Virus record (IMG/VR): IMGVR_UViG_3300008258_000016
Coordinates: 1-36,622 of that record
Reading direction: 5' to 3' (one strand)
DNA: 36,622 bases
From: a virus
Positions 848 to 34,700 of this stretch are shown one piece after another. Made by a program: the position numbers and the translations under genes. Within the stretch, counting starts at the first letter, position 1, and each line of letters starts with the position of its first letter. A model generated the notes under the pieces. It saw only the letters and a list, made by a program, of their open reading frames with translations. It had not been told where the DNA came from and did no database searches.

Positions 848-1493
848 ACATGCCTTTGCTGCCTGCTGCCATAAGGCCAAGCAGGTGGGCAGGAGGCTGA
901 ACAAGGACGAATGGCTGGCTACCATGCAGGCGGCCTACGACTCCTACCCCCACGGTGGCTTGCTGGTATCGGACAAACCGAAACCCAAGAAGGCAGCCCC
1001 CAAGGTGGTCGAGGAGGGCTGGCTGGAGGAGTTGGAAGCCAACCCCGCCTATGCCGGCATCGACATCCGCCGTGAGTTGGGGAAGGCCCAAGCATGGGCA
1101 TCCGTCCGTGGCGTCGGGGTATCCCAGCGTCGCTTCATCAACTGGCTCAACAAGGCTATGGCTGACCGCCCCATCCAGTACTCCGGGGCGGGCAAGACAT
1201 CCTTTGCCCCCGTCCAGCCCCAAGGCCCGGCAGAACCAGCCGGCTGGAGGGACTGGGTGAGGGAGAATAGCGCCGATCCCTCCCATGCGGACAAGCCGTG
1301 GTCTGCGCTGGACGCCTCCGCCCAGAGGTACATCATAGCCAAGCTCAATGAGCCGCCCGCCGTACATCCCGCCAGACCCAGCCCCAGTCCGGTATTGGAC
1401 CGGGAGGAAGTATCGGACGAGGACGTCCCCATGGCACGTCAAGCGAATGCGGGAGCTTTACTGGTCGGGAGTCTCCTGCGTCAGTATCGCTAG
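834..1493 (+). CDS. Replication-initiator-like phage protein
   Basis: A 219-residue soluble protein. Residues about 60-105 (ANPAYAGIDIRRELGKAQAW followed by SQRRFINWLNKA) match the pattern common in phage replication proteins and helicase-loader-like C-terminal domains: Y.GIDV..E..K...W, then RRF.NWLNR. Residues 1-50 are a separate helical region and 115-219 are proline-rich and low in recognisable structure. The start overlaps the previous gene by 14 bases. The last 146 bases overlap an HTH gene in another frame, which is long even for a phage and may mean this reading frame is artificially extended. The function is inferred from that motif and from the neighbouring RusA and SSB-like genes. 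Confidence 0.65.
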   Translation: MTFAEHAFAACCHKAKQVGRRLNKDEWLATMQAAYDSYPHGGLLVSDKPKPKKAAPKVVEEGWLEELEANPAYAGIDIRRELGKAQAWASVRGVGVSQRRFINWLNKAMADRPIQYSGAGKTSFAPVQPQGPAEPAGWRDWVRENSADPSHADKPWSALDASAQRYIIAKLNEPPAVHPARPSPSPVLDREEVSDEDVPMARQANAGALLVGSLLRQYR

Positions 1494-3384: not shown

Positions 3385-3779
3385 TTCTTCCTCACCATTC
3401 GGTCGCCGAACCACCAGCCGATGCAGTTCATGGCGGCGAACTGGAACTCATCGACCATATCCGCCTGTTCCTGCCCCGTTACGTTGAAGAAGATCACTGC
3501 TGTGATGATGAGCAGCAACAGGGTGATGAAGGGCCGGAAAAGCGTCAGGATGGCGGCTGCCCAGCCGGGCGTGTTGGAGGGCGGAGTCGCCTGTGCTTGG
3601 GAAGCAGTGAAAGCATCCCAAGCCGCCTTGTCCGCTGCGATGGCTGCCATGGCCTTCGCCTCCTCGATCTTCAGCTTGCTCTCCTTGTCCGCCCGCCATG
3701 TCTCGAAAAAGCCATTGCCGATGCGGAGCAGGACGCCCAGCGCACCACCACCCAAGGCATTGGTCAGTAGATCGAGCAT
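3381..3779 (-). CDS. 3TM-holin-like protein
   Basis: A 132-residue protein with an amphipathic N-terminus (LTNALGGGALGVLLRIGNGF), a charged alanine-rich helix (ESKLKIEEAKAMAAIAADKA), a strong hydrophobic segment (FITLLLLIITAVIFF) and a C-terminal NCIGWWFGDRMVRKK. The WWFGDR end is characteristic of the phage 3TM-holin superfamily. Holins permeabilise the inner membrane at the end of infection and release or activate the muramidase. The muramidase candidate lies at 422-847 on the other strand. This is the best-supported member of the lysis cluster. Confidence 0.75.
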   Translation of the reverse strand: MLDLLTNALGGGALGVLLRIGNGFFETWRADKESKLKIEEAKAMAAIAADKAAWDAFTASQAQATPPSNTPGWAAAILTLFRPFITLLLLIITAVIFFNVTGQEQADMVDEFQFAAMNCIGWWFGDRMVRKK

Positions 3780-31184: not shown

Positions 31185-31258
31185 TGGCCCGTGGTGTAAT
31201 GGCAGCACCAGCGACTTTGACTCGCTTGGTCTAGGTTCGAGTCCTAGCGGGCCAGCCA
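31185..31258 (+). tRNA. tRNA-Gln (UUG anticodon), CCA encoded
   Basis: A complete cloverleaf can be drawn: acceptor TGGCCCG (31185-31191) with CGGGCCA (31248-31254), D arm GTG/CAC, anticodon stem AGCGA/TCGCT with loop CTTTGAC (anticodon TTG at 31216-31218), T arm CTAGG/CCTAG with loop TTCGAGT, discriminator G and an encoded CCA (31256-31258). It reads CAA glutamine codons and may supplement the host pool. Its end lies two bases from the convergent gene at 31260. Confidence 0.9.
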
Positions 31259-32376: not shown

Positions 32377-32568
32377 CTAACCGTAATGATGAAGGCGGCG
32401 CGTCCCATCCCACATCTTCCAGTCCTTCGGGGCCGCCCGCAGCGGCTTCTCCGACTTGTGGTACAACCCGTAAAGGCTTTCCACGAACTTATGATCTCCG
32501 GTACGGGCTGATTCGTACCCCTTGGCTATCAGCCATTGCCGCTTTTGATAGGTGTTTAACTTATTCAT
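32377..32568 (-). CDS. Small hypothetical protein (63 aa), first of the leftward unit
   Basis: The product starts MNKLNTYQKRQWLIAKGYES and continues FVESLYGLYHKSEKPLRAAP, then DWKMWDGTRRLHHYG. It is basic and compact. Its ATG at 32568 is the upstream end of the leftward operon and follows directly after the structured intergenic block, preceded by AACGGGAAATCCCG, an 8-to-10-base palindrome-like leader. Function unknown. Confidence 0.6.
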   Translation of the reverse strand: MNKLNTYQKRQWLIAKGYESARTGDHKFVESLYGLYHKSEKPLRAAPKDWKMWDGTRRLHHYG

Positions 32569-32860
32569 CGGGATTTCCCGTTAGTACGTTCTTCCAAGTC
32601 TGCCCTTCGGGCCGAGCGAGGCTTTCTGGGGAGTAACCCCAGTTAGTCTCTCTTTGGCCCCTTCCGTCAGCCGTCTGCCCTTGCGGTCCTTCGCGGAGTG
32701 TTTCTGACCTGGGTCGTCAAAGCCTCGCCGAAGACGTAGCCCAGGATTTTGTGCTGATGGACGGGAATCCAAAGCCGACCTTTTCTGTGGGTTCGGCCCC
32801 CACGGTCCGCCTTCGCCCGTCCTTCTTCTCTCCGTTCGTCCGTAACCGCGACGTGAAAGA
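32569..32860. ncRNA. Structured gene-free block, candidate non-coding RNA or 5' leader
   Basis: This block has no convincing reading frame but many hairpins: GCCC-TTC-GGGC (32602-32612), CTGGGG-AGTAA-CCCCAG (32626-32642), a two-part stem CCTGGG/CCCAGG plus CGTC/GACG (32708-32745), and GCCGACC/GG..TCGGC (32774-32797). The series leads, on the plus strand, straight into the perfect terminator at 32861. It could be a plus-strand RNA gene of about 300 bases, or the minus-strand leader of the 32568 operon. I could not match it to RNase P, tmRNA, SRP RNA or a group I intron. Confidence 0.45.
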
Positions 32861-32900
32861 AAAAGCCCGAGCTGTGGTAAGAGGCACAACTCGGGCTTTT
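32861..32900. terminator. Bidirectional rho-independent terminator
   Basis: AAAAGCCCGAG (32861-32871) pairs perfectly with CTCGGGCTTTT (32890-32900), extended by TGTG/CACA towards the loop. The A run on one side and T run on the other make it function in both directions. It separates the rightward early operon from the leftward unit, but no annotated gene transcribes into it from either side, which supports an unannotated RNA in the block upstream. Confidence 0.75.
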
Positions 32901-32902
32901 CC

Positions 32903-32998
32903 TTGAACCTGACAGGAAAGTCTTCGTCGCGCTGCTCTTACCCAGCGAACGTCCCGTATGACGGGACGACTTGGGGTTGGGTTCAATCTTTTTTTTTG
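32903..32998 (+). ncRNA. Three-way-junction RNA fold ending in a T run, before the RHH gene
   Basis: Nested pairings: TTGAACC (32903-32909) with GGTTCAA (32980-32986); AAGTC (32918-32922) with GACTT (32968-32972); CGCTG (32930-32934) with CAGCG (32943-32947); GTCCCGT (32951-32957) with ACGGGAC (32961-32967). Two bases after the outer stem come nine T. All four helices are compatible, giving a compact multi-branch RNA with an intrinsic-terminator tail, 43 bases before the ATG of the ribbon-helix-helix gene. It could be a small RNA, an attenuator or a riboswitch-like element. Confidence 0.5.
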
Positions 32999-33019
32999 GA
33001 AAAGTGAAAATAGTGCTTG

Positions 33020-33037
33020 CAATGCACGCAATGCACG
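33020..33037 (+). promoter_or_regulatory. Tandem CAATGCACG repeat before the RHH start
   Basis: CAATGCACG occurs twice in direct tandem immediately before the ATG at 33041, in the place where a Shine-Dalgarno site would be. Ribbon-helix-helix proteins typically bind short tandem sites, so this is a plausible autoregulatory operator. No Shine-Dalgarno-like sequence is present. Confidence 0.45.
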
Positions 33038-33040
33038 CAC

Positions 33041-33205
33041 ATGGGTAGTGACGTGAAGCACAAGAAGCCAGCCCGCCGCACCGTAACGATTGACCTCCCC
33101 GCGCATCTGTGGGAGAAGTTGTCCAAGGTCACGGACGCCCAGCTTATCCCGAAAGCCGTGTTCGTGCGCTCGGTGCTCGTCACCCATCTGTCAGCGATCA
33201 AGTAA
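33041..33205 (+). CDS. Ribbon-helix-helix regulator (54 aa)
   Basis: The product starts MGSDVKHKKPARRTVTIDLP. ARRTVTIDLPAHLWEKLSKV is the usual RHH pattern (a basic beta strand followed by a helix), and AVFVRSVLVTHLSAIK forms the second helix. It would bind DNA as a dimer and is the first gene of the rightward early/recombination operon, right after the structured RNA and the tandem CAATGCACG. An upstream ATG at 33017 adds eight residues overlapping the repeat and is less likely. It probably controls this operon. Confidence 0.7.
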   Translation: MGSDVKHKKPARRTVTIDLPAHLWEKLSKVTDAQLIPKAVFVRSVLVTHLSAIK

Positions 33206-33949: not shown

Positions 33950-34170
33950 GCGACACACCGAGAACAGACGAACTTGCAAAGCGTGAGTTCGTAACCGACG
34001 GCCTTTGGATTAAACACGCCCGTGAGCTAGAGCGCGAACTCGCCGTCGAGCGGGCGCGGTTGGATTGGCTCTCAACGGAGAGTGGGAGCAAATGGGCGCA
34101 CCATGAGTCCGAGCAATGCAACATCACTCGCCGCGCAATCGACGCCGCAATGAAGGAGGTGAAGCCGTGA
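33946..34170 (+). CDS. SDTPRTD-family small protein (74 aa), long paralogue
   Basis: The product begins with GTG, (M)[20 protein letters not shown], and continues [20 protein letters not shown], ending [15 protein letters not shown]. It shares its first 8 residues and the (A/F)ARELERE helix with the 52-residue gene at 26124, with nearly identical starting DNA. The junction before it is GGAGGCGCAGCCGTGAGC, a Shine-Dalgarno-like GGAGG seven bases from the GTG. Unknown function; helical and probably oligomeric. Confidence 0.65.
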
Positions 34171-34700
34171 GCCCTGACGAACTAAAACGCATCCTGGACG
34201 ACCACGCATTGTGGCTCTTTGGGAATCGGGGCAGATGCGCTAACCTGCGCGGGGCCAACCTGCGCGAGGCCGACCTGAGCGAGGCCAACCTGCGCGGGGC
34301 CAACCTGCGCGAGGCCAACCTGAGCTGGGCCAACCTGAGCGGGGCCGACCTGCGCAATGCCAACCTGAGCGAGGCCAACCTGAGCTGGGCCGAGCTGCGC
34401 GGGGCCGACCTCAGCGAGGCCAACTTGCGCGGGGCCAACCTGCGCGAGGCCGACCTGCGCGGGGCTTACGCGCTGAAGTACGCCCAATGCTCGTTTGACG
34501 CGCACGGAGAAAGCGGGCGCCAGTTGTCTGCCGTAGTGATCGCTGGAGAGCTGCGGCTATTCTGCGGCTGCTTTGCTGGCACGCTGGCAGAGTTGGATGC
34601 CTACATCGACAACGGCGACGAACGCTACAAAGCAACTCGCAAACTGGCACGCGACTTCATCGTCGCCGCCATCGACGCCGCGAGAAAGGCGCAGCCGTGA
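34167..34700 (+). CDS. Pentapeptide-repeat protein with distinct C-terminal domain
   Basis: A 177-residue protein starting GTG (M)[18 protein letters not shown]; the GTG at 34167 overlaps the previous stop. Residues about 25-101 are A(N/D)LxxANL-type pentapeptide repeats ([20 protein letters not shown]...), about fifteen units, forming a right-handed quadrilateral helix. Residues about 105-177 ([40 protein letters not shown]) are a separate domain seen with such repeats in phages. Some pentapeptide-repeat proteins mimic DNA and inhibit gyrase; that role here is only a possibility. The repeat also shows up in DNA at 34238-34466. Confidence 0.7.
34238..34466 (+). repeat. Tandem 15-base repeat array in the pentapeptide-repeat gene
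   Basis: About fifteen units of a 15-base repeat, each like AACCTGCGCGGGGCC or GACCTGAGCGAGGCC, encode the A(N/D)L(R/S)(G/E/W) series. Units are nearly identical, so copy number could change by slippage or recombination. Codon usage is unusually uniform (CTG, GCC, GAC/AAC) within the array. Confidence 0.8.

Follow-up and report, generated by a model that had tools for sequence, protein, structure and literature searches.

Gene neighbourhood and the fold at 32903–32998

The window, i.e., the whole 36,622-nt stretch of viral DNA analyzed here (IMG/VR record IMGVR_UViG_3300008258_000016), carries a structured region between divergent gene sets, with small leftward genes to its left and rightward genes, including an exonuclease gene, to its right. 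The neighbouring gene at 33041–33205 had been taken, from the letters alone, to encode an RHH regulator. This identity is weak: the match to Pfam CopG_antitoxin (E = 0.083; 14.1 bits) stays below the cut-off of 28, and the predicted structure, two helices modeled at low confidence (pLDDT 67), is compatible with an RHH protein but no proof of it. Tandem CAATGCACG copies precede this RHH-like gene (33017–33040), and the related phage locus L007 carries other tandem repeats (CCGCAACATT; L007:3065–3104) in the same place, its homolog of the gene being 37% identical. Such differing repeats would be expected of an operator that changes with its repressor. The neighbourhood further comprises a plus-strand ORF (34116–34700) that encodes pentapeptide-like repeats and directly precedes the exonuclease gene and a tRNA-Gln gene (anticodon ttg; 31185–31258) about 1.6 kb from the structured region, which is also found nearby in L003 and L007.

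Folding of the plus strand at 32903–32998 (−35.9 kcal/mol) yielded four compatible helices round a three-way junction, made up of an outer helix, a second helix, and two hairpins, and followed by the T9 tract. The fold had a z-score of −3.62 and was matched by none of 200 dinucleotide shuffles; the T tract ends at 32997, and the ATG at 33041 lies 43 bases on. The four-helix fold with a nine-T run, as described in the sequence-only reading, is thus confirmed. The minus strand of the same span folds almost equally well (−32.1 kcal/mol, z = −3.34), so this fold does not tell the strand. Adding the adjoining hairpin H1, which lies immediately to the left of the span and mostly outside it, gave z-scores of −7.2 on the minus and −4.6 on the plus strand. 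The features of the region are as follows.

32857–32904, minus strand: hairpin H1, a perfect 19-pair hairpin with an 8-nt loop (32877–32884) and a U-rich tail, terminator-like
32857–32864, minus strand: U-rich tail TTTTTCTT past the G+C-rich core of H1 in the minus reading, found in all members on the minus strand and not in all on the plus strand
32877–32883, minus strand: H1 loop heptamer of the kissing contact (GTAAGAG on the plus strand, CTCTTAC on the minus strand), a perfect complement of 32935–32941
32905–32929, minus strand: H1–H2 linker with partial sequence conservation (GACTTTC..GTNAG in alignments of the window's subgroup, read on the minus strand)
32930–32947, minus strand: hairpin H2 (CGCTG/CAGCG) with the partner loop; of the helices in the reported junction, the family as a whole retains this one alone
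32935–32941, minus strand: H2 loop heptamer of the kissing contact (CTCTTAC on the plus strand, GTAAGAG on the minus strand), complementary to the H1 loop heptamer
32948–32987, no strand assigned: an additional hairpin (GTCCCGT/ACGGGAC) together with the outer helix's 3' arm, both limited to the window and L003/L004
32989–32997, plus strand: T9 tract (A9 on the minus strand), T8 in L003/L004 and absent from the other aligned members
32783–32818, no strand assigned: remnant recalling the junction of H1 and the element LE in L003 (BLAST segment)

The H1 loop sequence GGTAAGAG (32876–32883) is the exact complement of CTCTTACC (32935–32942) in the loop of H2. H2 lies within the span originally reported, but this strongest conserved contact lies partly outside it and had been missed. 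On the minus strand, a G+C-rich hairpin followed by a U-rich tract, the sequence criterion for an intrinsic terminator, was found for H1 in 12 of 12 members, with five to seven T in the first eight bases. The covariance model R1 matches the window at 32855–32957, also on the minus strand.

Covariation between the H1 and H2 loops

Related uncultured phages were recovered via the neighbouring PD-(D/E)XK-type exonuclease gene, and pattern and descriptor scans identified H1–H2 in the window, L003/L004, L005, L006, L008, L010, L012, L011/L013, L018, L161, and L218. The statistics of the kissing helix are based on 12 sequences. In all of them, seven of seven loop–loop pairs were standard and 100% Watson–Crick, while the heptamers themselves occurred in six kinds of pairs, i.e., GTAAGAG/CTCTTAC, GTAGAAG/CTTCTAC, GTAGTAG/CTACTAC, GTTGCAG/CTGCAAC, ATACGAG/CTCGTAT, and GTAGTGG/CCACTAC. 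Double compensatory changes were seen at five of the seven kissing pairs, one position showing all four Watson–Crick pairs. The covariation score was reached by none of 500 shuffles, and the signal was gone when the partners were slid against each other. The last of the six heptamer pairs, a perfect new one, is that of L266. As this locus was found with the LE pattern and aligned by a covariance model blind to loop pairing, it represents an independent test. The closing stem also compensates, from GTG/CAC to GAG/CTC in L006/L008. The covariation of the H1–H2 loop pairing is well supported. The bare descriptor (two hairpins with a 7-nt loop match) recurs about once per 90 kb when the two strands of the fetched loci are counted together, chiefly where the DNA is GC-rich, so the argument rests on conserved position and covariation and not on the motif alone.

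To date, the element has been found in 18 metagenomic phage contigs; its members are contigs of one phage group, representing at most about eight independent lineages, and counts of changes in the H1 stem vary with the alignment because H1 differs in length among members. The region does hold a real structured RNA element that exceeds an ordinary terminator in complexity, as had been suggested, and its structure is backed by covariation. Regarding the four helices of the plus-strand fold, H2 is kept family-wide and the other three are not; the outer helix and the T9 tract, limited to the window and its nearest relatives L003/L004, were ruled out as a conserved unit.

Searches of isolated phages revealed no relative of the DNA of the element, and the isolated-phage relatives of terminase and exonuclease were all below 60% identity. 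Two bacterial pattern matches, in Pontibacter and a Myxococcales MAG, were rejected since the loops match in neither. Among distant exonuclease relatives (L219–L260 and L262), neither H1–H2 (by model) nor LE (by profile) was detected, and a relaxed kissing scan of the four loci that carry LE without H1–H2 (L007, L009, L261, and L268) gave nothing convincing. Rfam 15, which includes GOLLD and ROOL, returned only tRNA at gathering score in the window and eight related loci; relaxed searches gave sub-threshold matches at chance level, and neither H1–H2 nor LE matches. One loop, GGUAAGAG, presumably resembles an RNase P hairpin loop; this likeness was dropped because the loops differ between phages.

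The adjoining element LE and the probable strand of the RNA

Most relatives carry a further structured element, LE, a noncoding stretch of about 235–262 nt (around 245 nt) located to the left of H1 or at the same place. LE is complete in L003, L007, L009, L010, L011/L013, L018, L161, L261, and L268, and partial or interrupted in L005, L008, L012, L218, and L266. Its minus-strand consensus comprises 58 pairs, and at 15 of these both partners have changed. LE would add another structured RNA, one for which relatives have not been described. H1 and LE are separated by a constant 28–29 nt in five lineages (L010, L013, L018, L161, and L266), and in these a purine stretch immediately preceding LE offers a possible pairing partner for the pyrimidine-rich H1 tail (UUCCUU/AAGGAA in L266, CUCUUU/AAAGAG in L018), a pairing read by eye in the junctions of some members and without statistics. 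The fixed spacing and this possible pairing suggest that H1 and LE may belong to one RNA. The two parts are nevertheless separable, as each is kept without the other in several phages: the window and L006 have H1–H2 without LE, and L007, L009, L261, and L268 have LE without a recognizable H1–H2.

No LE match was obtained in the window by nhmmer. Its positions from about 32377 to 32782 are unrelated to LE, and only 32783–32818 recalls the L003 junction, so the window has lost LE. Where relatives have LE, the window (32377–32850) contains a small leftward ORF (32377–32568) and possibly a second one within 32581–32889, neither with a convincing family match, and L006 also bears an ORF there. At this place, RNA and small genes seem to replace one another. 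In L266 (1889–2333, minus match), about 197 nt are inserted into LE at profile position 206–209, the very point at which an unrelated segment (GATCAGAGGCTGATTCC...) takes over in L005, L008, L012, and L218; this position is a recurrent insertion or exchange site inside a putative structured RNA.

Several lines of evidence bear on the strand. Against dinucleotide shuffles, LE reached z-scores of −1.8 to −3.4 on the minus strand in eight of nine sequences and about 0 on the plus strand; alignment shuffles gave −7.75 (minus) and −4.63 (plus). For the whole stretch from H2 to LE, the minus strand scored better in five of five sequences, and a U-rich tail follows H1 in every member when the minus strand is read, and in only some when the plus strand is read. 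Raw energies of LE are lower on the plus strand, but the resulting assignment as a plus-strand RNA was reversed by both the dinucleotide and the alignment shuffles. Counts of G–U versus A–C in LE did not decide the strand, individual wobble pairs in H1/H2 speak for either strand, and the strands were not separated by the alignment of H1/H2 on its own (plus z = −4.59, minus z = −4.14). We conclude with moderate confidence that the element is probably read from the minus strand. A sigma70-like promoter was not recognized on either strand of the window stretch, and no convincing leftward promoter was found in the relatives.

On the minus strand, H2, H1, and LE are followed within a few tens of nucleotides by the start codon of a leftward gene, which differs among phages. 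Because the tails and the folding statistics favour this strand, a leftward leader or a small RNA with an internal terminator is the likeliest reading, rather than a plus-strand attenuator of the RHH operon.

A putative leftward leader and its alternatives

Taken together, the data point to a so far undescribed gene-control RNA, probably read from the strand opposite to that first proposed. Our leading model, held with somewhat less than even confidence, is that the element would be the surviving 5' part of a minus-strand leader RNA between the divergent gene sets and would work as an attenuator. It builds on what the computation yielded, i.e., the two hairpins, their 7-bp covarying loop helix, the structure and covariation of LE, the fixed spacing, and the U-rich tail on the minus strand. 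The order in most relatives would be a divergent promoter region, H2, the linker, H1 with its U-rich tail, the 28–29 nt junction, LE, and the leftward gene. Transcription would start near 33000 and run leftward; the loop of H2, made first, would pair with the emerging loop of H1, and this contact may set how often the polymerase stops at H1, as a putative intrinsic terminator with its U tail, or proceeds into LE and the leftward genes. If LE is transcribed leftward, read-through is needed, since a separate promoter that keeps clear of H1 would not fit into 28–29 nt; the stop at H1 would then be regulated or leaky. The U-rich tail could also pair with the purine stretch before LE instead of acting as a terminator. 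For the window, from which LE is missing, the model predicts termination to yield a compact RNA of about 145 nt, with the hairpin as an insulating stop. A terminator-like loop that co-evolves in cis with a neighbouring hairpin suggests that termination may be set by a loop–loop contact, involving neither ligand nor antisense RNA, and the variable heptamers represent a natural series of compensatory mutants. More tentatively still, H2–H1–LE may form a new phage RNA class of about 350–410 nt, in which a co-evolving kissing helix links the loop of an intrinsic terminator to a hairpin upstream of it, as a self-contained switch (or an oligomerizing RNA) choosing between a short RNA and leftward read-through.

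The leader model has to be weighed against a stable noncoding RNA, composed of H2–H1 and, where present, LE, which acts in trans or as a homo-oligomer. This is rather unlikely in our view, yet it is the most probable of the alternatives. The loops might then pair between two copies in the manner of the phage RNAs GOLLD and ROOL, which kiss between copies (PMC12286853), and loop–loop covariation fits intra- and intermolecular pairing equally. One continuous RNA would also be expected to show the constant H1–LE spacing and the possible pairing of the H1 tail before LE. Less expected are a terminator-like tail in the middle of such an RNA, the separate retention of H1 and LE in several phages, a size below that of GOLLD and ROOL, and the lack of an Rfam match. 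H1 might instead be a plain intrinsic terminator that insulates the divergent units; the kissing helix would then only stabilize a short leftward transcript at its 3' end and play no part in regulation. The strong hairpin with its U-rich tail, its placement before unrelated leftward genes, and the retention of H1–H2 in the window and L006 despite the missing LE agree with this; the perfectly co-evolving 7-bp contact and the fixed spacing of LE, however, are left unexplained, and we regard it as unlikely.

Less probable again is the original proposal that a plus-strand three-way junction with the T9 tract terminates or attenuates transcription upstream of the RHH operon. The window does have both the fold and the T9 tract, and L003 keeps an outer helix and T8, but the other members are without the outer helix and T run, and the folding statistics and tails favour the minus strand. 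As the terminator-like tail is kept on the minus strand in all members and LE scores best there, attenuation of the RHH operon from the plus strand is unlikely. The link to this operon does not hold in L005, L008, L010, and L012 either, in which H1–H2 precedes a different gene, the exonuclease gene, with no RHH gene between. The small separate RNA offered as the other option for 32903–32998 is possible. Least probable of all is that the complementary heptamers are simply an inverted repeat in DNA (a protein site, a recombination site, or a cruciform) without any RNA contact. They do form such a repeat, and recombination could keep the copies identical; each copy, however, sits in a hairpin loop in every member, and the closing stem in L006/L008 compensates too.

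Some known systems share traits with the proposed leader. In pT181-type attenuators, an antisense RNA exerts control by kissing with a 5' hairpin of the leader, and an intrinsic terminator precedes the genes (PMC4878617). The likeness lies in a leader-type RNA with a terminator-like hairpin before genes and in kissing between hairpin loops (PMC4878617); the pT181-type partner, however, is a separate antisense RNA contacting a 5' hairpin, whereas here both loops lie on the same strand and one belongs to the terminator-like hairpin itself. Neither an antisense partner nor an antiterminator was identified for H1–H2. GOLLD and ROOL are large ornate phage RNAs with kissing loops between copies, and resemble the element as structured phage RNAs of not yet established function, often near tRNA genes and with covarying kissing loops (PMC12286853). 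The stretch from H2 to LE differs in being shorter (347–409 nt in the members folded), in having no Rfam match, and in its terminator-like hairpin, pairing in cis and between copies not being separable by covariation. Phage lambda produces a short 6S transcript. In lambda-type late control, Q acts at a promoter-proximal terminator (PMC6606751). The proposed model is similar in that a short promoter-proximal transcript would end at an intrinsic terminator before phage genes, with read-through controlled; the kissing loop and LE are without counterpart in lambda. We found no natural terminator whose loop pairs in cis with an upstream hairpin in the open-access literature, which is weak evidence of novelty.

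Further loop complements were noted in the fetched loci. In L049, a contig of another phage, two co-directional genes are separated by a terminator-like hairpin (933–1034, minus strand), the loop of which shows a 7-nt complement (CTCACAC/GTGTGAG) in a hairpin lying directly upstream. This pair may be due to chance and is kept as a lead only, because we estimate that 65 hits would contain about 0.3 such matches by chance. The complement GCGATTT/AAATCGC, about 54 nt apart, recurs in L006, L008, L010, and L012 (e.g., at 3698 on the minus strand of L008); it lies about 2 kb downstream of the exonuclease start, and its recurrence could reflect coding conservation.
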